In this document: in pieces, positions 674-12,279 of the stretch
How the letters are laid out: each line of letters begins with the position of its first letter
How positions within the stretch are numbered: position 1 is the first letter of the stretch
Source of the DNA: Acetobacteraceae bacterium
GTDB lineage: Bacteria > Pseudomonadota > Alphaproteobacteria > Acetobacterales > Acetobacteraceae
NCBI GenBank assembly: GCA_947462945.1
Contig: CANHTE010000007.1
Coordinates: forward strand, 1 to 12,279
Direction: 5' to 3'
DNA length: 12,279 nt
Position numbers and translations under genes: made by a program
Notes under the pieces: model-generated
What the model saw: the letters and a program-made list of their open reading frames with translations, nothing else
Databases searched by the model: none
Told to the model about the DNA's origin: nothing

Positions 674-1822
674 ATGAACGCAAACGCTCCCTTCCCCGAG
701 GTCACCCACCAGCGGGCGCTCCTGCCCGAGGGGCTGACCCTGGATTGCGGCGCCGTGATCCGCCCCCTGGCCGTCGCGTATCGCAGCTATGGCACGCTCA
801 ATGCCGCGCGCAGCAATGCCATCATGGTCTGTCACGCGCTCACCGGCGATCAATACGTGGCCGAGCGCCAGCCGGTAACCGGCAAGGATGGCTGGTGGGA
901 TGCCATCATCGGTCCCGGCAAGCCTGTGGATACGGATCGCTTCTTCGTCATCTGCGCCAATGTCCTCGGGGGCTGCATGGGCTCGACCGGCCCGCGTGAG
1001 GAAATGACGGATGAGAATGGCGTGCCCCAGGGCCGCCCCTGGGGGACGGATTTCCCCGTTGTCACCATCCGCGACATGGTCCGTGCCCAAAAGAAGTTGA
1101 CCGACCATCTGGGCATCACCCGGCTGCTGGCGGTGATCGGCGGCTCCATGGGCGGCATGCAGGTGCTGGAATGGGCAGCGACCTTCCCCGAGGCCGTCTT
1201 CGCCGCGGCCCCCATCGCCTGTGCCTCGCATCATTCGGCGCAAAACATCGCCTTCCATGAGGTGGGCCGTGCCGCCATCCATTCCGACCCGGACTGGAAG
1301 CAGGGCCGCTATTGGGAGGATGGGCGCATCCCGGCCCAGGGCCTTTCGGTCGCGCGCATGGTGGCGCATATCACCTATCTCTCGGAGGCCGCGCTGACGC
1401 GCAAATTCGGCCGCCGCCTGCAAGGCGCCAGCGCGCTGACCTTCCTGGAGGATGTGTTCCAGGTGGAGAGCTATCTGCGCCACCAGGGCAGCACCTTCGT
1501 GCGCCGTTTCGATGCGAATTCCTACCTGACCATCACCCGTGCGATGGATTATTTCGACCTGGCGCATGAGCATGGCAGCGTCGCGGCCGCCTTCCGGAAC
1601 ACGCCCACGCGCTTCTTCGTCGCAAGCTTCTCCTCCGACTGGCTGTTCCCCACCGGTGAGAGCCGTGCCTTGGTGCGCGCGCTGAACACGGCCGCCGCGC
1701 GCGTCAGCTTCATCGAGGTCACGACCGACAAGGGGCATGATGCCTTCCTGCTGGATGAGCCTGAATTCCATCGTGCACTCGGCGGCTTCCTGACGGGCGC
1801 CGCCCGGGACGCCGGGCTATGA
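674..1822 (+). CDS. metX: Homoserine O-acyltransferase (O-acetyltransferase family) MetX
   Basis: This 382-residue alpha/beta-hydrolase fold enzyme acylates homoserine with an acyl-CoA, the first committed step of methionine synthesis, in the cytoplasm. Visible signatures are the N-terminal 'YRSYGTLN' and 'CHALTGDQY', the oxyanion/substrate segment '[11 protein letters not shown]', the nucleophile elbow 'GGSMGGMQ' with Ser158, Asp322 in 'SSDWLFP' and His355 in 'KGHDAFLL', which complete the Ser-Asp-His triad. Length is normal for the family. ATG 674 is chosen as start; an upstream in-frame TTG at 662 adds four residues and has a better-spaced GCAGG, so it remains possible. The stop overlaps the next start (ATGA at 1819-1822), placing metX first in a metX-dinB-metW unit. 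Acetyl- versus succinyl-CoA preference cannot be read safely from the sequence; acetyl is the default for MetX. Confidence 0.95.
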
Positions 1823-2373
1823 GCGGCGCGTTGCTGATGCGCGCACAGGCGCGCAACAATGCCTGGGCCAACCAGCGCCTGCTGAATGCCGTCCAGGTGC
1901 TGGATGCGGAGGAGTTTGACGCGCCGCGCCAGGGCTTCTTCCCATCCTTGCGGGCGACGTTGAACCATATCCTCATCGTGGACCGGTTCTATGTGGATGC
2001 GCTGGAGGGCGGCACGCTTGGCCCCGCCGCCTGGGCCAATGCCGAACCCTGCCAGGACGTCCCAAGCCTCTACGCCGCGCAATCCGCCGTGGATTTCCGC
2101 CTGATCGCCTGGTGCGAAGCGATGACCGAGGCGGACCTCTCCCGCATCATCGAGGTTCAGCGCGGCCACCGCGTGCAGCGCGAGCGGGCCGACCGGCTGC
2201 TGCTGCACCTGTTCCAGCATCAAATCCATCATCGCGGCCAGGCGCATACCATGCTGGGCCGCGCGGCACCGCAGCTCGACGAGTTCTATTGCTGGGCGGA
2301 GCAACCGAAGCGTGTCTCTGAATTCGCCAGGCTCGGTTGGAGCGAGGATGATCTCTGGCAGGAGCGCCGCTGA
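1819..2373 (+). CDS. DinB superfamily protein (putative metal-dependent enzyme)
   Basis: The 184-residue protein has the four-helix-bundle DinB pattern: an N-terminal '[16 protein letters not shown]' helix, '[11 protein letters not shown]' carrying His50, and a C-terminal '[10 protein letters not shown]' motif (residues 134-143). His50, His134 and His138 form the usual metal-binding triad of the superfamily. Known relatives include bacillithiol S-transferases and mycothiol-dependent maleylpyruvate isomerase, but many members carry only the generic DinB label, and nothing here fixes a substrate. The start overlaps the metX stop (ATGA) and the stop overlaps the metW start (TGATG), so it is embedded in the methionine unit and probably translationally coupled on both sides. 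The position hints at a role in thiol or sulfur chemistry; this is inference. Family membership is secure, function unknown. Confidence 0.88.
2360..2364 (+). promoter_or_regulatory. Ribosome-binding site of metW inside the dinB coding end
   Basis: AGGAG lies 8 nt upstream of the metW ATG at 2373, within the last codons of the DinB gene. This supports the TGATG overlap as the real metW start, with its own initiation signal as well as coupling. Confidence 0.6.
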
Positions 2374-3008
2374 TGCCGGATGACGCCATCCAGTATGTCG
2401 CGAAGAACATGCGCCTTGATCTGCGCCTGATCGCGGAGATGATCCCCCAGGATGCGCGCATGCTCGACATCGGCTGCGGCGATGGCGCGCTGATGGCGCA
2501 TCTGGCGGCCGAGAAGCGGGTCGATGCGCGGGGCATCGAGATTGACATGCAAGCCGCGACCGAGGCGGTGGCCCAGGGCCTGGCCGTCATTCACGGCGAT
2601 GCCGATAACGACCTCGCTTTCTATCCCGATGGCGCCTTCGACTATGTGGTGCTGAGCCGCACCTTGCAGGCGGTGGAACGCCCGCGCGAGGTGCTGCGCC
2701 AGATGCTGCGCATCGGCCGCCATGCCATCGTCAGTTTTCCCAATTTCGGCCATTGGGAAGTGCGCTGGAAGCTGCTGCTGGGCGGCCGCATGCCAGATAC
2801 CGAGACATGGACCCGCCCCTGGTACGAAACACCCAATATCCATCCTTGCACCATCCTCGATTTCTTTGCCCTGGCCGAGCTGGAGGGCTATGCGATCGAA
2901 CGATGGCTCGCAGTGGATGAGCGCGGCCTGAAAGCGCCCTGGACGCGGTCTGTCCGGCTGGCGAATTTATTCGGACAGCAGGCGCTGTTTCAGCTGCGGC
3001 GCAAATAG
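2373..3008 (+). CDS. metW: Methionine biosynthesis protein MetW
   Basis: The 211-residue protein has a class I SAM-dependent methyltransferase fold: motif I 'MLDIGCGDG' near residues 30-38, the acidic strand end 'GIEID', 'FDYVVLSRTLQAV' and the MetW-typical 'VSFPNFGHWEVR' followed by 'TRPWYETPNIHPCT'. These last two segments distinguish MetW from generic methyltransferases. MetW works with MetX in methionine synthesis in many proteobacteria; in the literature it is associated with MetX activity rather than a firmly proven methyl transfer. The start overlaps the preceding stop (TGATG) and has a good AGGAG. Length is normal for the family. Usually metW directly follows metX; here a DinB gene separates them. 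Identification is strong. Confidence 0.95.
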   Translation: MPDDAIQYVAKNMRLDLRLIAEMIPQDARMLDIGCGDGALMAHLAAEKRVDARGIEIDMQAATEAVAQGLAVIHGDADNDLAFYPDGAFDYVVLSRTLQAVERPREVLRQMLRIGRHAIVSFPNFGHWEVRWKLLLGGRMPDTETWTRPWYETPNIHPCTILDFFALAELEGYAIERWLAVDERGLKAPWTRSVRLANLFGQQALFQLRRK

Positions 3009-3109
3009 CCCCTCAGTTTCAGTGGCGCCGCGCGGTGGCGCTTGTTACAGATCAAGGTGGGCGGTCCAAACATCCGCCAAATAAAGGCACATCCTAGGGA
3101 GGGTTGAAG
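3009..3109. other. Intergenic region metW-phaB
   Basis: This 101-bp gap contains a weak inverted repeat, GCGCC at 3025-3029 and GGCGC at 3037-3041, with a 7-nt loop and no U tract. It is a poor terminator candidate. The right part is relatively AT-rich (about 3066-3092) and could hold the phaB promoter, but no convincing -35/-10 pair was found. The change of gene function and the gap suggest phaB is transcribed separately from the met unit. Confidence 0.4.
3096..3103 (+). promoter_or_regulatory. Strong ribosome-binding site of phaB
   Basis: AGGGAGGG ends 6 nt before the ATG at 3110. It is the strongest Shine-Dalgarno in the window and fixes the phaB start at 3110 rather than the in-frame TTG at 3104. 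Confidence 0.8.
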
Positions 3110-3832
3110 ATGGCACGAGTGGCGTTGGTAACGGGCGGGCAGCGGGGCATTGGCGCTGCGATCAGCGAAGGCCTCAAGGCTGCCGGGCGCAAGGTGGTCG
3201 CCAGCTATGCCGGCAATGACGCCGCCGCCGCCGCCTTCACCGAACGCACCGGCATTGCCTGCATCAAGTTCGATGTCTCCGATTTCGAGGCCTGTGTCGC
3301 TGCCGTCGCCAAGGTGCAGGAAGAGCACGGCCCGATCGAGATTCTGGTGAACAATGCCGGCATCACCCGCGATGCCATGATGCGCAAGCTGACACGGCAG
3401 ATGTGGGATGACGTGATCGATACCAACCTGGGCTCCTGCTACAACATGTGCAAGGCGGTCTGGGATCCGATGAGTGCTGCGAAGTTCGGCCGCATCGTGA
3501 ATATCGGCTCGGTCAATGGCCAGGCGGGGCAGCTGGGCCAGGTGAATTACGCCGCCGCCAAATCCGGCATCCATGGCTTCACGAAAGCCCTGGCGCAGGA
3601 AGGTGCCCGCAACCAGATCACGGTGAACGCCATCGCGCCCGGCTATGTGGACACGGAAATGGTGCGCGCCGTGCCGGCGGATGTGCTGGAAAAGATCATT
3701 GCCCGCATCCCGCGTGGCCGCCTGGGCACCGCCGAGGATATTGCGCGCGGCGTGGTGTTCCTGACGGCCGATGAGGCGGATTTCATCACGGGCTCCACGC
3801 TCTCCATCAATGGCGGGCAGCATATGTATTGA
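3110..3832 (+). CDS. phaB: Acetoacetyl-CoA reductase (short-chain dehydrogenase) PhaB
   Basis: The 240-residue classical SDR has the nucleotide-binding 'TGGQRGIG' (residues 8-15), 'NNAG' at 81-84, structural Asn106, and catalytic Ser134, Tyr147 and Lys151 in 'SVNGQAGQLGQVNYAAAKSG'. The 'SVNGQxGQxGQxNY' stretch, 'ITRDAMMRKLT' and the ending 'SINGGQHMY' are typical of PhaB rather than FabG. PhaB reduces acetoacetyl-CoA to (R)-3-hydroxybutyryl-CoA with NADPH for polyhydroxybutyrate synthesis. It has its own strong ribosome-binding site. The partner genes phaA and phaC are not in the window, so it is locally an orphan; in many alphaproteobacteria phaA sits beside it. A FabG-like role is the main alternative but less likely. 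Confidence 0.9.
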   Translation: MARVALVTGGQRGIGAAISEGLKAAGRKVVASYAGNDAAAAAFTERTGIACIKFDVSDFEACVAAVAKVQEEHGPIEILVNNAGITRDAMMRKLTRQMWDDVIDTNLGSCYNMCKAVWDPMSAAKFGRIVNIGSVNGQAGQLGQVNYAAAKSGIHGFTKALAQEGARNQITVNAIAPGYVDTEMVRAVPADVLEKIIARIPRGRLGTAEDIARGVVFLTADEADFITGSTLSINGGQHMY

Positions 3833-3885
3833 TGCGTCGGCACACTTTCTTTCCCGTGGGGGCAGCGCCTGCTAACTTGTAGGCC
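3833..3885. other. Intergenic region phaB to glycosyltransferase
   Basis: These 53 bp separate the metabolic block from the glycosyltransferase block. No hairpin terminator and no clear promoter boxes were seen. An in-frame TAG at 3880-3882 limits how far upstream the next gene can start. Confidence 0.35.
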
Positions 3886-6800
3886 TTGCAGCCGCGGGAC
3901 CAGAGTGTGCAGGCGCTTCGCGACCTTACCCAGCCAGCCGAGCTGACCGACGCCGAAATGGCCTTCCGGCTGGTGCTCGGCCGACCCCCCGCCCGTGCGG
4001 CCGATCTGGAAGCGCATCCCGGACGTCCGTTGCGGGAGGTGCTGCTGCATTTTCTTCAATCTCGCGAGTTCCGGGAGAGGGTGCTGCCGCGCCTCACCCC
4101 ACGGGCCATTCCCATGCCCGAGACCTTGCTCGATCCCGCGCTGGTCGCCTGGTGCGGGCGGGTATTGGGCCTGGCGGGCGCGCGGCGGTGGCCGGCGGCG
4201 CTGGCCGCATGGCTGCGCGATCCCGGGCAGCTTGCAGCGCTGTCGGGCGTGGATGCAGCGTTGAGTAAGGCACTCGGCGCTGCGCCGCCCGCCGCAACCA
4301 GGCCTCCGCCGGAGGATTGGCGCGGATTGCTGCCGGTGCTGCTCTGTGGCCCCGCCGCGGCCTTGCCTGTGACCGAGGCTTTGCTGCTGGCCGCTGCCCG
4401 GCAGATGATCCTCTCGCCCGCCTGGCAAGAGGCTGTTCTGGCCCCACTCGCCGGCGGGCGCTTGCCGCCGCTGGTGCTGCCGCCTGCAGCGCGGGCGCTG
4501 GCCACTGCACAGCTTTGCCCGGGCAGAACTGAGGGGGGGGATTGGCAGGCGCTACTGCTGCGCCTGCTGGGCGATGCACAATCCCGGCTTCGGCTGGAAG
4601 CGGCGGGCGACTGGTTTGAGTGCACGCCGGCGCATGCGGCGCGGCTGCCCGCGCTGCTTTCGCTGCGGAACCAGGCCCTGGCCAGGCTGGCAACACCCCG
4701 GCAGCCATCTGCGGCCCGGGAGGAGACGGCTCCGCCCCGCCAACTTCCGCATGCGCGGCAGTTGGCGCTCTCCGGCCAGGTTGGCGCCGCGCTGAAGCTG
4801 CTGGCCCGCATCACCCAGGACGCCCCTGCCAGCGCCGAGGCGTGGCTGCTCCGGGCCGAGCTTCTGGCCTTGACGAACGATTGGCCGGCCGCCGAGGCCG
4901 CGCTGGAAAAGGCGCCGCCCGGCCCTGCCCGCTGCCAGCTGGCCGCGCGCTTCGCCCTCCACGCCAACCGCCCGGATGAGGCCGCGTACCTCTTGGCAGG
5001 CCTTCCCCCCGATGCGCCGGAGCGCGAGGGGTTGCTGGCTTCCGGCGTCACCTCGCCCCTGCATCTCGCCCTGACCTTCGCGCCTGCCGGGGCGCTCGCC
5101 GCTGCCCTTGCCGCCGATCCGCTGGCGCCGCTGGCCGCGCCCGCCTTGCAGGGGCGCGATTACCTGCTGCACCCGGCCCTGGCCCGTTTGCCGCCACCGC
5201 CAGGCGCGCCCCATGCGCTGCTCCAGGCGCTGGCCCGCTGTGCCGCCGAGCCACGCCTGAAGGGCCAATTCGCCGAGGCCGCGCTGGCCCATCGCCCCGA
5301 TGATGCCGAGACATTGATGCTGCTGGCCCTGGCCCTGCGCGCGGGCGGTGATCATCAGGGCGCCGCCGATGCGCTGGACCGCCTGTTGCGCCATCACCCG
5401 GCGCATGAGCGGGGGGTGGAGCGTCGCCTCGCCTATGAGCTGGATTTGTGCCGGGCGGACCCGTTGCGCCCGCGTGGCCGGCTGGCGGATTTGCTCATCC
5501 AGCGGCGCATTGCGCTGCACCGCAGGCTGGCGCTCGACCCTCAAGCCCGGGCCTTGCGACTGGATCAGGCGCGCCTCGCGCTGGCGGCGGGTGAGGACGG
5601 GGAAGGCCGCGCCGTACTCGAAGCGCTGGCCACGGATCATCCCGGCTGGGCGCCCCCCATCGCCACGCTGATGTATCTGGCCCAGGAACAGGCCGATCAC
5701 GCTGGCGTGCTGGCCGCCTTTGCCCGGTTACCGGTGGAGGAGCGGGGCCAGCGCGCGGTCGTTGCCGCCGCCAAGGCGCTGCGCCTCTCGGGCGATGTGG
5801 AGGCGGCCCAGGCGCTCCTGGCCGCCGAATTGCCGCGCGGCCTGCCCGAAATCCGCCGCGAGCACGCGCGCAATCACTTCTTTGCCGGTCGCTTCGCCGA
5901 GGCCGCGCGCGAGGCCGCAGACTGGCCCGCCGAGGACCCGGAATTCGGCCTGCTCGCCACCGCCATCGCGCTGGAACAGGGCGACCCTCAAGCGGCGCTG
6001 CGCCATGTGGCCAGGCTGCAGGCCACCGGCGCCGAGCGCGCCTTCCCGCTGGAATTTTCGCTGTTCTGCTGCGCCGCGTTGACGAGGGCCGGGGATTGGG
6101 CGGCGGGCCTCACGGCGCTGGATGCGATGTTCGCCCGCTATGGTGCGCGTCCCCTGCGGCGCGATTCGGCCCTGCCAGGCGCTGCCTTTGATCAGCTGCG
6201 CGGCCTGGGCGGGCCGGCCGGGGCCAGTGTCGAGGCCCCGGTTTTCGACGGGCCGAAGATTTCGGTGGTGATGACCAGCTTCAACAGCGCCCCGTATATC
6301 GCCACGGCGATCCGCTCCATCCTGGAGCAGAGCTACCGCAACCTCGAACTCATCATCGTGGATGATGCCAGCACGGACGGGACGGCCGCCCTTCTGGTCG
6401 AGATGGAGCCGCACGATCCCCGGCTGCGGGTGGTTCTGAAAACCAGCAATGACGGCACCTATGTCAGCAAGAATCTCGGGCTGCTGCACGCCACGGGCGA
6501 GTTCGTCGCCTTGCAGGATTCTGACGACTGGTCCCATCCGGATCGTCTTGCCTGCTCGGTCGGGCTGCTGCTGCGCCGGCCTGAATTGATCGGCCTGACC
6601 ACGGATTGGCTGCGGATGACGAGCGAGGGTGAAGTCATCATCAAGGCGGGCGGGCAGATTGCGCATCTCTGCTGCATTTCCCTGGTGTTTCGCCGCGCGC
6701 CGGTGCTGGACCGCATCGGCTTTTTTGACAGCGTGCGCGTCGCGGCCGATTTGGAATTCATCCAGCGCCTGAACCTCGCCTTCGGCGAGCGCGCCTGCCC

Positions 6801-7038
6801 GCGCCTGCGCTGGCCCCTCCTGGTGGGCCGCGCCCGCGCCGATTCGCTCACGGCCCATGAAGATTACGGCCTGGTCCGCACCGGCTTCACCGCCATCCGA
6901 CGCGACTACCACGCCAGCGCCGGGGGCTGGCATGACCGCATTCGCGCGGGCGAGGTCACGCCGCGCATGCCCTTCCCGCTGACCACCCGGCGCTTCGACG
7001 CCCATGCGCTGATCCTGCCGGAAGCGGTGGCTCCATGA
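3886..7038 (+). CDS. Large modular glycosyltransferase: DUF4214-like segment, TPR-like repeats, C-terminal GT2 domain
   Basis: About 1050 residues. Residues 20-70 ('DAEMAFRLVLGRPP' then 'LLHFLQSREFRERVLPRL') resemble the DUF4214-like segment at the N-terminus of many proteobacterial glycosyltransferases. Residues ~289-780 are Ala/Leu-rich helical repeats of TPR type (such as 'SAEAWLLRAELLALTNDWPAAEAAL'). Residues ~791-1030 form a GT2 domain: 'KISVVMTSFNSAPYI', Asp826-Asp827 in 'IVDDAST', the metal-binding Asp878-Ser879-Asp880, and a late 'HEDYG' near 991. It should transfer a nucleotide-activated sugar to a glycan or protein; donor and acceptor are unknown. No signal peptide or membrane helix is seen, so it is probably cytoplasmic. 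The start is uncertain: TTG 3886, GTG 3907 and ATG 3958 are in frame, but the last would cut into the N-terminal segment. A run of eight G (4533-4540) lies in the coding region. The stop overlaps the next start (ATGA). Confidence 0.85.
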   Translation: MQPRDQSVQALRDLTQPAELTDAEMAFRLVLGRPPARAADLEAHPGRPLREVLLHFLQSREFRERVLPRLTPRAIPMPETLLDPALVAWCGRVLGLAGARRWPAALAAWLRDPGQLAALSGVDAALSKALGAAPPAATRPPPEDWRGLLPVLLCGPAAALPVTEALLLAAARQMILSPAWQEAVLAPLAGGRLPPLVLPPAARALATAQLCPGRTEGGDWQALLLRLLGDAQSRLRLEAAGDWFECTPAHAARLPALLSLRNQALARLATPRQPSAAREETAPPRQLPHARQLALSGQVGAALKLLARITQDAPASAEAWLLRAELLALTNDWPAAEAALEKAPPGPARCQLAARFALHANRPDEAAYLLAGLPPDAPEREGLLASGVTSPLHLALTFAPAGALAAALAADPLAPLAAPALQGRDYLLHPALARLPPPPGAPHALLQALARCAAEPRLKGQFAEAALAHRPDDAETLMLLALALRAGGDHQGAADALDRLLRHHPAHERGVERRLAYELDLCRADPLRPRGRLADLLIQRRIALHRRLALDPQARALRLDQARLALAAGEDGEGRAVLEALATDHPGWAPPIATLMYLAQEQADHAGVLAAFARLPVEERGQRAVVAAAKALRLSGDVEAAQALLAAELPRGLPEIRREHARNHFFAGRFAEAAREAADWPAEDPEFGLLATAIALEQGDPQAALRHVARLQATGAERAFPLEFSLFCCAALTRAGDWAAGLTALDAMFARYGARPLRRDSALPGAAFDQLRGLGGPAGASVEAPVFDGPKISVVMTSFNSAPYIATAIRSILEQSYRNLELIIVDDASTDGTAALLVEMEPHDPRLRVVLKTSNDGTYVSKNLGLLHATGEFVALQDSDDWSHPDRLACSVGLLLRRPELIGLTTDWLRMTSEGEVIIKAGGQIAHLCCISLVFRRAPVLDRIGFFDSVRVAADLEFIQRLNLAFGERACPRLRWPLLVGRARADSLTAHEDYGLVRTGFTAIRRDYHASAGGWHDRIRAGEVTPRMPFPLTTRRFDAHALILPEAVAP
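4533..4540 (+). repeat. Homopolymer tract G8 inside the large glycosyltransferase gene
   Basis: Eight consecutive G encode part of Glu216-Gly217-Gly218-Asp219. The reading frame is intact on both sides as given. Gain or loss of one G would truncate the protein before its GT2 domain, so the tract is a possible slippage hotspot. Confidence 0.7.
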
Positions 7039-8102
7039 ACGGGGCCGGCATCCCGGTGGTGAATGCCACCATCTACCAGGACAACCCCTATCACGCGCTG
7101 CTTTATGCCGGACTGGCTGGGCGCTATGACCCGATCCGCGGCGGGATCGAGGAGGCATTTTCACTGCTGCCGGACGGCCCGGCCCTGCTGCATATCCATT
7201 GGGAGGAACACGCGCTGCGCGGCGCGGCCAGCCCGGCCGAGGCGATGTTGACCGCACGGCACCTCGGCGCGCGTCTGGCGGCCTTCCGGCAGGCGGGCGG
7301 ACGCATCCTCTGGACGCTGCACAACGCCGAACCGCATGAGGCCCTGCCCGGGGCCGCCTTCGTGGAATGGCGCCGTGCCATCGCGGCGCAGGCGCATCGC
7401 ATCCTCATCCACAGCACCGAGGCCCTGACCATACTGGAAGCGGCCGTCGGACCCGTGGCGGAAAAGGCCTTCCTGCTGCCGCACCCCGCCTATCTGGGCG
7501 TCCATGAGGCCGAGGCCGCCGCCCCCGCCTTCCCCGAAGGGCGCGGGTTGCTCTGCTTCGGCAAGCTGCGCGGCTATAAGCGGCTGGACCGTGTGCTGGC
7601 CGCCCTGCCGGAAGAGTTTCTGCAATCCCACAACGCCCGCCTCACCATTGCGGGCGAGGCGCTGCCCGGAGATGCCGCTTTGGCGGCGCTGCAAGCGGCC
7701 ACGGCGGACCGCCTCACCCTCGACTGGCAAACCCGCCGCATTCCGGATGCCGAGACAGCCCAGTTCTTCCGGGCCAGCCGTGCCGTGGTGCTGGATTATG
7801 AGCGGCATCTCAGCTCGGGCGTGGCGCTGCTGGCGCTCAGCTTCGGCCGCCCGCTGCTCGCCCCGCGCTTGCCGGGCCTGCTCGAAATCCTGCCCGCTGC
7901 CGCGCATCCTCTGCTTTTCATTCCCGGCTCGGCTGAGGATTTGCGCCGCGCGGCGGCCGAAATCCTGGGCATGGAGGCGGGCGAATATGCGGCGCTGGCC
8001 CAGGCCTGCCTGGAACGTGCCCGGCATTACCATCCGCTGCGCATCAGCCGCATTCTGGGTGCGCTGTATGATGAGGTGCTGGGCCCCGCCTACAGCTCAT
8101 AA
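7035..8102 (+). CDS. Glycosyltransferase, GT-B fold (GT4/family 1-like)
   Basis: The 355-residue protein reads as a two-lobed GT-B enzyme. The N-terminal lobe carries 'LLHIHWEE' (His53, His55) and 'ILWTLHNAEPHE' (His96-Asn97). The C-terminal lobe begins near residue 172 with 'LLCFGKLRGYKRLDRVLAAL', where Lys177/Arg179 are placed like donor-phosphate-binding residues. It continues with 'VVLDYERHLSSGVALLALSFGRPLLAP' (residues ~251-275), which occupies the place of the GT4 donor-binding motif, although the classical E-x7-E is not clean. Some resemblance to polysaccharide mannosyltransferases is possible, but I cannot name the sugar. The start overlaps the upstream stop (ATGA at 7035-7038), so it should be co-expressed with the large glycosyltransferase. 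Its 3' end overlaps the convergent minus-strand gene by 13 bp. The fold class is well supported, the specificity is not. Confidence 0.85.
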   Translation: MNGAGIPVVNATIYQDNPYHALLYAGLAGRYDPIRGGIEEAFSLLPDGPALLHIHWEEHALRGAASPAEAMLTARHLGARLAAFRQAGGRILWTLHNAEPHEALPGAAFVEWRRAIAAQAHRILIHSTEALTILEAAVGPVAEKAFLLPHPAYLGVHEAEAAAPAFPEGRGLLCFGKLRGYKRLDRVLAALPEEFLQSHNARLTIAGEALPGDAALAALQAATADRLTLDWQTRRIPDAETAQFFRASRAVVLDYERHLSSGVALLALSFGRPLLAPRLPGLLEILPAAAHPLLFIPGSAEDLRRAAAEILGMEAGEYAALAQACLERARHYHPLRISRILGALYDEVLGPAYSS

Positions 8103-9895
8103 TCCGGCAGATGCCAGCGATAGGTCCGCGCCGCCATTTCGAGCGTGCGGGTCTTTTGGAAATCCGAACTGCCGATATCGCTATCCTCCAGCACCTGGAT
8201 CGCGGCATTGGGCGTCGTCACGAAGCAGCGCTCCCGAAAAGCCAGCGTGGCGGCTGAGAGTGGACCCGTGTCGAAGGGCAGGTCCCGCCGTTTCACCAGT
8301 TCCAGAAGGAAGGGGAAGACCTCGAAACGCAGCCCGACCGCGTGGGAGCCGATGGCACTGCCCTCCGTGCGATGGAGATGCCGCGCGACCGGGACGCTGG
8401 CCGTCCGGTCCCAGTTGTATTGCAGCGTGCCCAGTTGCAGGACCAGCCAATCGGCCGGCAATGCCGCATGGGCGGCCGCCAGCAAGGCCTGGAACTCGCG
8501 ATGGAAGGCGACATCGTCATCCAGCACCAGCAGGGTTTCCACGCCATCGGCCAGGGCGCGCTCCAGGATGCTCTGCCAGGTGATGAGATAGGCCAGCGCC
8601 CCGGCCGAGGTGATGGCCTTGCGGCCGATTCGCGCCTCCTCGAAGGCGATGCGGGCCTGCTGGCTGTCATGGTCGCGATAGAATTGCCAGGAGGAGGTGA
8701 CGGCCCGCACGCCCGCCGGGCGCGGCAGGGGCGGTTGTGCCGCATATTCGGCGAATTCGGCCGCAATGCCCGGAAATTGCCCATCCATTGCGGCCACACG
8801 CTCCGCCGTGATGCCAGCCTTTGCGAGGCGTCCCTGCATGGCCGCCCAGCGATCCGGCCGACGGTCCAGATTGATCACGCAGATTCGCTGAAACATGTCC
8901 TGCACGCCACGCAGCAGGCGTGGCGCCGGAGGAATGCCGCGCCAGCCCACCTTGCTGCGCACCGCATCTGCTTCCGGGACCGGCAGCGCCTGGTTCCCGG
9001 CCGCCGCCGCGCAAAACATCCAGCGGCCGAGATCGGGCAGTTCGGCTGCTGGTCCCGCGCCGGATTGCGCGAGGGCGAGGCGCGCGAACCATTCGGGCAG
9101 GGCATCGGGCTGCTGGGGGTCCAGATCACCTGCCGCCAGTGCCAGGGAGGGCGCCATGGCGGCGAAGCAGGGGGGCATCCCCCGCGCATCGGCGGCTTCC
9201 CGGCCCAGGGCAAGTTGCCCCGCGCCGCCGCGATGCCCGAACAGCGCAAGGCCCGGCTGGCGTGTCACCAGGCCGAGCGCGGCCTTGGCCCATTCGCCGC
9301 CGGAGAAGCGGATTTCCCCCCCCAGCATGGCCAGCAATGCGCCATCCAGCCGCAGCGCGAGGTTCAGCGCCTCCGCCAACCGCGCCTGGGGGCTTCGGCC
9401 GGCAATGGGCACGAGATGCAGCTCTGCCGGCAGGCGCAACTCGGCGCTCCAGCCGGCCAGCGCCGCATCCTCGGAGAGCGGGCAGAGCACCACGACCCAA
9501 TCGAGTTCCGCCCAGGCCTGGGCCTGCCAGGTCTCGATCAGCGCCTGGGTGGCGTCCAGGCTTTCGGCCAGTACCAGCAGGACCAGCTTGGGCCGCAGAG
9601 TGGGTTGCAATGTGAGCGGCCCGCCGCGCTGCATCAGCGCGTCCTGGACCAGCGACGAATCAAAACGGGAGCGCGTCGCCTTCAGCGAGTGATCATAGAT
9701 CGTGTCAAAGCCGCCCTCGCGCTCATTCTGCCAAGCCAGGTGGCGCGGACGTTCGAGCGCGATCATCGGAATGCGCTGGCGCTGTGCATGCAGCGCCACG
9801 AAGATATCGGCCATGTTGCGATAACCGAAATCCGCCCAGCGCAGCTTCAGCCTGTCGCTATGGGCGCAGAAGGCATTGGTGCCCAGCACATGCAC
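8090..9895 (-). CDS. C-terminal part of a frameshifted multidomain glycosyltransferase: end of GT-A domain, degenerate GT-A-like domain, GT25 domain
   Basis: This 601-codon frame starts without an ATG or ribosome-binding site; its first possible start is GTG 9895. Its first residues ('HVLGTNAFCAHSDRLKLRWADFGYRNMADIFVA', given here only by its ends HVLGTNAF and NMADIFVA) continue the GT-A domain of the upstream frame. Numbered on the rejoined 950-residue protein, ~430-650 is GT-A-like ('PKLVLLVLAESLDAT', 'AMLGGEIRFSGG') but lacks a DxD motif. Residues 683-950 are a glycosyltransferase family 25 (LPS-type) domain: 'ICVINLDRRPDRW' (687-699) and acidic Asp808-Asp810 in 'LVLDDDVAFH'. The family transfers sugars to lipopolysaccharide or protein. 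It ends with TAG at 8090, inside the convergent gene's last codons. It is unlikely to be translated independently and is best read as the 3' half of one gene with the frame ending at 9847. Confidence 0.75.
   Translation of the reverse strand: MHVLGTNAFCAHSDRLKLRWADFGYRNMADIFVALHAQRQRIPMIALERPRHLAWQNEREGGFDTIYDHSLKATRSRFDSSLVQDALMQRGGPLTLQPTLRPKLVLLVLAESLDATQALIETWQAQAWAELDWVVVLCPLSEDAALAGWSAELRLPAELHLVPIAGRSPQARLAEALNLALRLDGALLAMLGGEIRFSGGEWAKAALGLVTRQPGLALFGHRGGAGQLALGREAADARGMPPCFAAMAPSLALAAGDLDPQQPDALPEWFARLALAQSGAGPAAELPDLGRWMFCAAAAGNQALPVPEADAVRSKVGWRGIPPAPRLLRGVQDMFQRICVINLDRRPDRWAAMQGRLAKAGITAERVAAMDGQFPGIAAEFAEYAAQPPLPRPAGVRAVTSSWQFYRDHDSQQARIAFEEARIGRKAITSAGALAYLITWQSILERALADGVETLLVLDDDVAFHREFQALLAAAHAALPADWLVLQLGTLQYNWDRTASVPVARHLHRTEGSAIGSHAVGLRFEVFPFLLELVKRRDLPFDTGPLSAATLAFRERCFVTTPNAAIQVLEDSDIGSSDFQKTRTLEMAARTYRWHLPDYEL
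9316..9323 (-). repeat. Homopolymer tract G8 (minus strand) in the degenerate GT-A-like domain
   Basis: On the coding strand it reads CTG followed by GGG GGG G, encoding Leu-Gly-Gly-Glu in 'AMLGGEIRF'. It has the same CTG-plus-G context as the tract at the frameshift, but with eight G, and here the frame is kept. Confidence 0.7.
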
Positions 9896-10941
9896 CGTGC
9901 GGTCCCCCCCAGCGGATTGCCGAAATGGAAGGTGCTGCGGGATTCGGGCGCGTAATAGGTCGAAAGCGGCTGGCGCAGCAGCACGCCATGCAGCGCGACG
10001 AAGGCCGCATCGCCGTAGCGCCTCGCGCCTTCCACCATGTGCCGGGCGAAATGCGGCGCAAAGATCAGGTCATCATCCACGATGATGCGGTAGCCGGGCG
10101 CCTCCAGCACCTCCACCCAGCCGAATTTTCCAGCATCGCCCTTATCGTCCCAATCCTGCGAGCGGCGGGTCTCCACGCGCGGATGACGGAGGAAATCCGG
10201 CACATCGGGATAGCCGTTGAGGAAGACGCGCACGCGGTCGCATTGGGCCAGCAGGCTGGTGACCGCATCGCGCAGCATCTCACGCCGGTCAGGGATGGAC
10301 GCCATGGAGGCGATGACCGGTGCGCCCAGATCATGCCGCAGCCGCGCCTGATGGCTCTCGGGGTCCAGCTGGAACCAGGCGAAGTGGCCGAGGGTGAAAC
10401 CAGACCCGATCCCGGGCCGCAGCGCCAGGACCTGGGCGCGCAGGCGCTGTGCCTGCATCGGCACATAGAAGACGTGTTCGGAGTTGCCTTCCGGCAAGGG
10501 CATGTCAGGGCCAAGCGACTGGCCGCGCTCATTGATCAGGCGCAGAACGGGCTGCACGCCTTGCGCTCGCTCGTTCAGGCCGAGGGTAAGCCTCAGGCAT
10601 AGCAGCGCCCCTCCCGGCGCCGGCCGATACGCCGAGCTGACGCCAGGCGTCCCCTCCGCCTGGCATAATTCCACCTCCCCCCCTGGCTTGAGTCGGACCG
10701 CCTGATGATGGCTCCAGCCCGCCCAGTCATGGGTGAGATCCTCTTCGCTCAGGGGGGTGAGGTGCAGCGCCGGGGCCGGGCCGGGTGACGGCACCAAGGG
10801 GGGGGCGGGCACCACGCCAGATGTTGCCCCTTTCAGGAGGGCTTCGCCCCAGGCTTCCAGTCGGGCTTCCATCTCGGCCAGATGCACGCCCAGCAGCGCA
10901 GCCAGCACGGCTTCGCTCACGGGCTTTTCCGCCTCGCTCAT
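9847..10941 (-). CDS. N-terminal part of the frameshifted multidomain glycosyltransferase: accessory module and first GT-A domain
   Basis: From ATG 10941 (overlapping the previous stop as ATGA) the frame codes 364 residues, of which the last 18 are out of the ancestral frame. Residues 1-60 are a short helix plus a Pro-rich linker. Residues ~70-200 look like an all-beta accessory module ('GGALLCLRLTLGLNE', 'HVFYVPMQAQRLRAQVLALRPG'). From ~205 a GT-A glycosyltransferase domain begins: 'APVIASMASIPDRREMLRDAV', 'VRVFLNGYPDVP', 'DKGDAGKFGW' and Asp289-Asp291 in 'YRIIVDDDLIFAP', the likely metal/donor site. The domain is cut at Gly346, where seven G follow 'FHFGNPL'. The out-of-frame tail then ends at 9847. 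With the shift corrected, 'GGDRTVHVLGTNAF' follows naturally into the next frame. As encoded, the product would be a truncated, probably inactive GT-A domain. Confidence 0.78.
   Translation of the reverse strand: MSEAEKPVSEAVLAALLGVHLAEMEARLEAWGEALLKGATSGVVPAPPLVPSPGPAPALHLTPLSEEDLTHDWAGWSHHQAVRLKPGGEVELCQAEGTPGVSSAYRPAPGGALLCLRLTLGLNERAQGVQPVLRLINERGQSLGPDMPLPEGNSEHVFYVPMQAQRLRAQVLALRPGIGSGFTLGHFAWFQLDPESHQARLRHDLGAPVIASMASIPDRREMLRDAVTSLLAQCDRVRVFLNGYPDVPDFLRHPRVETRRSQDWDDKGDAGKFGWVEVLEAPGYRIIVDDDLIFAPHFARHMVEGARRYGDAAFVALHGVLLRQPLSTYYAPESRSTFHFGNPLGGTARCMCWAPMPSAPIATG
9904..9910 (-). other. Frameshift site: G7 tract joining the two halves of the glycosyltransferase gene
   Basis: On the coding strand the frame reads AAT CCG CTG GGG GGG ACC. 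The seven G form a perfect X XXY YYZ heptamer, G GGG GGG, in the zero frame. A -1 slip, or one extra G, gives Gly-Gly-Asp-Arg-Thr-Val-His-Val-Leu-Gly-Thr and enters the downstream frame with no stop. The rejoined gene has 950 sense codons. A modest hairpin (GGTGC 9896-9892 with GCACC 9882-9878, 9-nt loop) starts 7 nt after the tract. Whether this is a real indel, programmed frameshifting or a sequencing error cannot be settled here. Confidence 0.8.
10798..10805 (-). repeat. Homopolymer tract G8/C8 in the Pro-rich linker of the frameshifted glycosyltransferase gene
   Basis: On the coding strand eight C encode 'APPL' in the Pro-rich linker near residues 45-50. The frame is intact as given. A length change here would abolish both downstream catalytic regions. 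Confidence 0.65.
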
Positions 10942-12279
10942 GAGAGGGCCGCCGGCAATTCGACGGCCGCGCGGGAAAACAACACGATATCCTCGGAGCC
11001 GAGCGGCAGATGCGGCAGCACGGCGGCGACGATCTCAGGCAATTGGCCGATGATGGCGGTGATGGCCGCGCGGTCCCCCGCTTCCGGGATCAGGGCCATC
11101 ACCTTGGCGCGGGGCCCGCCGGGGCCCACGCGAAAGACCGGGCCGAAATGATCCGCCTCCTCGCCAGGCCAGGCCTTGGCGAAAAGCGGCCAGCCGGGTC
11201 CAGGGCGGAATTCCAGCCGCGGGGCCACGCCGCTCAGCCCCAGCTTGAAGCGGACGGCGATGCTTTGGCCATCCTCCAGCGGCAAGTCTGGGATGGTGAG
11301 GTCAAGGTGGCGGTAGGTGGGGGGCTTCGAACGGTATTCATTCACCGTCACGGTGAACCGCCCGTCGCGCGCCTGGGCCATGGGGGATGTGGGGCGGATG
11401 GTGGTGGCCGCACCGCCGGGGGGCGGGGCGGGCTTGGGCGCCGCGATGCTGACGCGCGGGGCAAAAGACGCGGGGGTTGCAAGTGCTTCCGGCGCGTGGG
11501 GCGTAAAGGGCAAGGCGGCGGCCAGGGCCGCGCGATGGGCCCGTGCGGCGGCCAGCATCGCGTGAGCGCGGCCCGAAGGGCGCGACCAGCCGATCCGGGC
11601 GATCAGCCCGCGCGACACCAGACCCTCCGGTGATTCATAACGGGCGCTGATGGACCCGTGCAGGCTGAGATCAGGCGCCTGGCTCAGCACCTCGTGGTAG
11701 CAGCGATACTCTGCGCTGCCGCCCCAGTAGTTCTTCTGGACCAATGCGCGCTGGATGCGATCGGCCACGTCCGGCAGGAATTTGAAATGAAGAATAGCCA
11801 AAAACCGGGGCGAAAGGAAGTTTGCATCATAGGGCCATATATGATGCGGATTGGCCACCAAATCGCCGGGCTTCAGGCGAAAGAGCGGATACTTCACCAT
11901 CTCGGGATTGAAGGAAGCATCGGCCGCGGCGAAGACCCGCCGGCGCGGCCCGCCCTTCACCGAAAGCACCTCCTTGTAGCGGCTCTCCACATAGCCGGCG
12001 GCGTCATGGAACGCATAGCTCTCCAGCAGGGCATCGCCCGCCCGATAGCGGGATTGCAGCAGCGGACCCTCCGCATACATGTCCAGCATGAAGCCGCGCA
12101 CGCGCCACAGGTCGCGCCGCTCCATCTCCGCCGCCAGCTCCTCAAAGCCGCGCCGTGCGCAATCTTCGAAGACAATGTGCTCATCCGCGTCCACATGGAT
12201 GAACCAGCGATCCATTCCGTACTGGGCGATGGCACGGTTGATCCAGCCTTGCTTCAGCTTCCATTCAAAGATGCCGGGG
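10938..12279 (-). CDS. GT2-like glycosyltransferase with Pro/Ala linker and C-terminal accessory module; partial, 5' end beyond the right edge
   Basis: The frame is open from the right edge to TGA at 10938-10940 (446 codons in window). The start lies outside, because residues before the first internal ATG (12215) fit the family: 'GIFEWKLKQGWINRAIAQYG' leads into 'MDRWFIHVDADEHIVFED', whose Asp30-Ala31-Asp32 (numbered from the first full codon) is a DxD metal site as in the Glyco_tranf_2_4-type GT2 family. The segment 'LAILHFKFLPDVADRIQRAL' and the Trp/Tyr-rich 'NYWGGSAEYRCYHEVL' complete the catalytic half, ending near codon 230. A Pro/Ala linker follows (~257-290), then a ~120-residue C-terminal module of beta type ('SIAVRFKLGLSGVAPRLEF', 'HFGPVFRVGPGG') that I do not recognise. 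The stop overlaps the next gene's start (ATGA), so both minus-strand genes form one operon. Donor and acceptor are unknown. Confidence 0.8.
   Translation of the reverse strand, partial: PGIFEWKLKQGWINRAIAQYGMDRWFIHVDADEHIVFEDCARRGFEELAAEMERRDLWRVRGFMLDMYAEGPLLQSRYRAGDALLESYAFHDAAGYVESRYKEVLSVKGGPRRRVFAAADASFNPEMVKYPLFRLKPGDLVANPHHIWPYDANFLSPRFLAILHFKFLPDVADRIQRALVQKNYWGGSAEYRCYHEVLSQAPDLSLHGSISARYESPEGLVSRGLIARIGWSRPSGRAHAMLAAARAHRAALAAALPFTPHAPEALATPASFAPRVSIAAPKPAPPPGGAATTIRPTSPMAQARDGRFTVTVNEYRSKPPTYRHLDLTIPDLPLEDGQSIAVRFKLGLSGVAPRLEFRPGPGWPLFAKAWPGEEADHFGPVFRVGPGGPRAKVMALIPEAGDRAAITAIIGQLPEIVAAVLPHLPLGSEDIVLFSRAAVELPAALS

Follow-up and report, generated by a model that had tools for sequence, protein, structure and literature searches.

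One copy of a two-domain glycosyltransferase gene in an Acetobacteraceae draft genome carries a frame break at a run of seven Gs, and the break is probably recent and of an ordinary kind. On balance, the evidence leans slightly towards a recent, lineage-specific change of one base in the length of the run, which would inactivate the first domain; a consensus error in the assembly is nearly as likely. The gene does not show programmed frameshifting as a conserved trait, and phase variation is unlikely. The case carries a caution: an in-register slippery heptamer followed by a small stem at a frame break resembles recoding, but the genome is GC-rich, G7 heptamers turn up in frame repeatedly, and the stem does not exceed what chance gives. 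Were the run to vary within a population, the gene would exemplify the recent birth of a phase-variable glycan locus in a non-model bacterium.

Frame break and domain architecture

The window, the whole 12,279-nucleotide stretch of DNA analysed here, corresponds to C7, one of the 442 contigs of a draft genome that totals 2,234,870 bases and is 57% complete. Two overlapping minus-strand frames share the gene (Table 1), the upstream one starting with ATG and the downstream one having GTG as its first start, and coding passes between them at the G7 run. A Viterbi scan based on codon usage (249,030 bases of the same genome) placed the frame switch at this run as well. Beyond it, the upstream frame continues into an unrelated tail that does not align with the relatives and ends at a TGA (9849-9847). 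The frame break is thus real in the sequence as given. The zero-frame codons over the run are CTG GGG GGG ACC, which puts G GGG GGG in register for a -1 slip. The original prediction had described the two frames switching at seven Gs, the in-register heptamer and a 5-bp stem starting 7 nt 3′ of the run, and all three were recovered here, in the ORFs and the sequence, the zero-frame codons and the minimum-energy RNA fold, respectively.

Table 1 Features of the broken glycosyltransferase gene and its upstream neighbour in the window
Feature	Position	Strand	Basis
Upstream neighbour gene, overlapping the glycosyltransferase start by ATGA	10938..12215	-	ORF listing
Upstream frame (364 aa), covering the N-terminal portion of the glycosyltransferase	9847..10941	-	ORF; aligns with P0001 residues 2-347 at 96% identity
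Heparosan synthase B/KfiA-like glycosyltransferase domain, interrupted by the break	9695..10326	-	PDB sequence search; P0001 residues 206-416 (coordinates converted by hand from P0001 numbering)
G7 run, point of frame loss	9904..9910	-	Sequence and codon-usage frame switch
5-bp stem GGUGC/GCACC	9878..9896	-	Minimum-energy RNA structure; starts 7 nt 3′ of the run
Downstream frame (601 aa), carrying the remainder of the first domain and the GT25 domain	8090..9895	-	ORF; 97% identity with the C-terminal region of P0001
Glyco_transf_25 (Pfam PF01755), intact in the downstream frame	8396..8890	-	E 4.8e-9, residues 336-500

The gene is predicted to encode a two-domain glycosyltransferase, in which a KfiA/heparosan synthase B-like domain is followed by a GT25 domain. 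In the closest relative, P0001, a PDB sequence search matched the first domain to heparosan synthase B (E 1.5e-25) and, over residues 209-411, to KfiA (E 9.5e-11), and the similarity spans the domain including its DDD stretch, which supports the assignment at the sequence level. A profile of full-length relatives (936-1043 aa) matched both proteins in its first half; it comprised 24 of the 28 relatives, leaving out P0008, P0022 and P0027, which are short or partial, and the distant P0028. The PF01755 match in the downstream frame scored 36.8 bits against a curated cut-off of 24, which places it in GT25, and 23 of the 24 full-length relatives likewise matched this family with an E value of at most 0.1 (residues 685-849 in P0001). 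Weak matches to Glycos_transf_2 occurred in eight of the 24, the best with an E value of 0.0033. Across P0001-P0026, the heparosan synthase B/KfiA-like domain is fused to GT25, and the first domain has weak Pfam matches only. The break falls at residue 346-347, after the DDD stretch and before a conserved HVLGTNAF...RNMADIF region. It had been expected to lie within a glycosyltransferase domain, and the PDB search indeed sets it in the middle of the heparosan synthase B/KfiA-like one.

The relative of the upstream neighbour adjoins the orthologue in both genus genomes in which an orthologue was read. On the plus strand of the window, genes for a TPR plus GT2 protein (3886-7038) and a group 1 glycosyltransferase (7035-8102) overlap each other by ATGA and are convergent with the broken gene.

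Uninterrupted relatives and orthologues

P0001, from a metagenome, is a single uninterrupted protein of 950 aa. All 18 relatives (of 28) aligned with both halves from the window run through the break site, and the two genus orthologues, L007 and L008, are single open frames of 1082 and 984 codons from stop to stop. At the break site these two read CTGCGGGGTGAC and TTGCGTGGCGAC, both without a G run. Neither the frame transition nor the slippery site is therefore conserved among the 18 aligned relatives and the DNA of L007 and L008, and the G tract is not retained in these two orthologues. A break that is unique while the relatives examined are whole is what a singleton null mutation or an assembly error would produce. 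The original prediction had looked to orthologues to separate its candidates, and they told against programmed frameshifting.

The gene is sporadic, with a match in three of 21 genus genomes including the window's own, some of these genomes being incomplete, and a family-wide search at E 1e-60 or better gave a match in one of 150 sampled genomes, again the window's own. Both protein searches scored the 8000 candidates that shared most words, and the source names of the relatives include Roseococcus, Sediminicoccus and Falsiroseomonas, with Hyphomonadaceae for one partial sequence. The search for proteins the size of the N-terminal fragment gave a single one, P0029 (44% identical), whose sequence continues across the site and stops well beyond it.

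The residue before GD of NPLGGD is R in five of the six next relatives listed (P0002 and P0004-P0007) and G in both the window and P0001; for this reason, the G run may have arisen by substitution in the window's lineage. Divergence from the orthologues is of the coding type, biased towards third positions, in both halves of the gene. Substitutions per site at the first, second and third codon positions were 0.159, 0.139 and 0.400 in the upstream part and 0.116, 0.093 and 0.368 in the downstream part against L007, and 0.251, 0.175 and 0.379 and 0.171, 0.161 and 0.421, respectively, against L008, the bias being weakest in the upstream part against L008. Since this bias is kept on both sides, the break, if real, would be recent.

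Recent mutation or assembly error

On the favoured reading, a one-base length change in the G run would break the frame of the two-domain gene in the organism and not only in its assembly. The first protein would end inside the first catalytic domain, so that this cell or strain would lack the full-length enzyme. The half with GT25 is undamaged, and at most a low-level product might arise from an internal start. In the GeneTack survey, frameshifted genes without frameshifted relatives are regarded as likely indel mutations or sequencing errors, and its authors expect one class of such singletons to be sequencing errors instead of real mutations (PMC3711429).

An error in the consensus or the assembly of the G run, or the inclusion in the contig of a variant from a minority strain, would leave the organism's gene whole and give the same picture as a real mutation; this is a serious contender, with somewhat less than an even chance. 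The assembly is an incomplete and fragmentary draft, the break sits in a homopolymer, the relatives examined have an intact gene, and signs of constraint persist on either side of the break. Against it stands the behaviour of other homopolymers in the same assembly. The codon-usage scan covered 21 of the 442 contigs, C1 in part; breaks close to the end of a gene, or in a short gene, would escape it. The sampled contigs hold 42 G/C runs of at least 7 nt, of which 34 lie within one unbroken coding segment, seven lie at edges or outside, and one is the present break. On reading, one of these 34, which is 13 Gs long, seems to lie between genes, and 33 are left. As 33 or 34 such runs keep frame against a single break, errors of this kind seem uncommon and the assembly is not generally unreliable in G/C runs, which argues against a homopolymer-prone assembly. 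An assembly riddled with homopolymer errors was accordingly ruled against by the scan, runs of 7-9 elsewhere keeping frame. One break in this much sequence is probably no more than ordinary mutation could give.

The scan flagged 17 of 95 same-strand junctions; by reading, with a closer look at C3, C9, C10 and C13, these were judged not to be frame breaks, except for the G7 site and one on C18 near 3020. On C18 (L026), a second candidate frame switch lies at about 2761-3215 on the minus strand. It has no long homopolymer, and the relative in G005 matches the region in two pieces about 750 nt apart, for which reasons it was not counted among homopolymer breaks, although the frame may really be broken there a second time in this genome. 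On C10 (L018), a minus-strand frame stays open for more than 9 kb (about 830-10546), an unusually long gene for the sample, and the scan's odd segment sits within it.

Possible but unlikely phase variation

Slipped-strand changes in the G run could toggle the full-length enzyme, although we consider this unlikely. The enzyme is of a surface-glycan type by family, the run lies in the coding region, P0001 is whole at 96-97% identity, and, in classing phase-variation clusters, the authors of GeneTack took homopolymers of 7 nt or longer as an indication (PMC3711429). Yet L007 and L008 are without the run, which is only 7 long; a single state, with no second allele, was seen in the genome assembly; and runs of at least 7 nt are common in the genome (42 in 249 kb). 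Among the matches listed in the literature on phase variation and related terms, Acetobacteraceae were not named. A more specific version has, if anything, a slimmer chance: a young contingency locus, in which a G run born by substitution in a capsule- or LPS-type glycosyltransferase would toggle the first catalytic domain while the GT25 half could still be made. The run of 13 Gs on C18 (L026; 7522-7534), the longest in the sampled contigs, was called coding by the scan and appears intergenic on reading; it is a better candidate for length variation than the G7 run of the window. Of the explanations listed in the original prediction, a recent inactivating deletion and a homopolymer error fit the evidence, phase variation gained no positive evidence, and programmed frameshifting was set aside in view of the uninterrupted orthologues.

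Programmed frameshifting and separate genes as rejected readings

Programmed -1 ribosomal frameshifting on G GGG GGG would yield the full protein from the sequence as it stands, and the heptamer in register with a stem 7 nt downstream is what draws attention to it; we regard it as very improbable. In a survey of heptamers in E. coli, 61 motifs (95.3%) passed the threshold when the strong IS3 pseudoknot followed them, and the three that it names as failing do not include G7 (PMC4066793). In the same survey, the lowest frequency of all, 0.018%, was that of G_GG.G_GG.U without a stimulator, and the most efficient motifs that its text lists do not include G7 (PMC4066793). G7 could therefore slip given a strong stimulator, and none such was seen at this site. 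The 78 nt from the run onward, folded without pseudoknots, were no more stable than shuffled sequences (141 of 200 shuffles at least as stable, z 0.58), and the centroid structure holds a different 5-bp stem, 3 nt after the run. By reading, the GGUGC/GCACC stem is also present in L007, and its outer pair is lost in L008. As L007 is uninterrupted, lacks the G run and needs no frameshift, the stem appears to follow the conserved TVHVLGTN coding sequence. A downstream structure stronger than chance was thus not found in this 78-nt region. In the coding segments sampled (231,414 bases), GGGGGGG accounts for 15 of the 194 in-frame X XXY YYZ heptamers, the 15 lying elsewhere than at the break. Because such heptamers recur and shuffles fold equally well, the combination of slippery heptamer and stem is not unusual in the sampled genome. 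Programmed frameshifting was rejected on the evidence of the 18 aligned relatives and two orthologues that read through the site, the two orthologues without the heptamer.

An arrangement as two genes, in which translation of the GT25 part would have a start of its own, is the least probable and was likewise rejected. In its favour, the downstream frame has a GTG at 9895, 8 nt beyond the G run, a tract that might pair weakly with the ribosome, and the start of P0022 (614 aa, 45% identical) lies a little beyond the equivalent site; P0022 is on a contig of 2,529 bases, however, is indistinguishable from a partial gene and may be one. Against it, the split falls inside one domain, and the orthologues and the full-length relatives aligned are single proteins through the site.

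Comparison with known systems

The gene resembles heparosan synthase B and KfiA in its first domain only, the GT25 domain of P0001 having no reported match to either in the PDB sequence search, and it resembles GT25 proteins (Pfam PF01755) in its second. Phase-variable glycosyltransferases of Campylobacter, Neisseria and Helicobacter carry a homopolymer in the gene. The likeness of the window's gene to them lies in this feature, a homopolymer within a glycosyltransferase gene; in contrast to them, its run is absent from L007 and L008 and has no second length in the genome. With the singletons of the GeneTack survey (PMC3711429), which was based on complete genomes whereas the window's gene comes from a fragmentary draft, it shares a single break in a gene whose relatives are whole.
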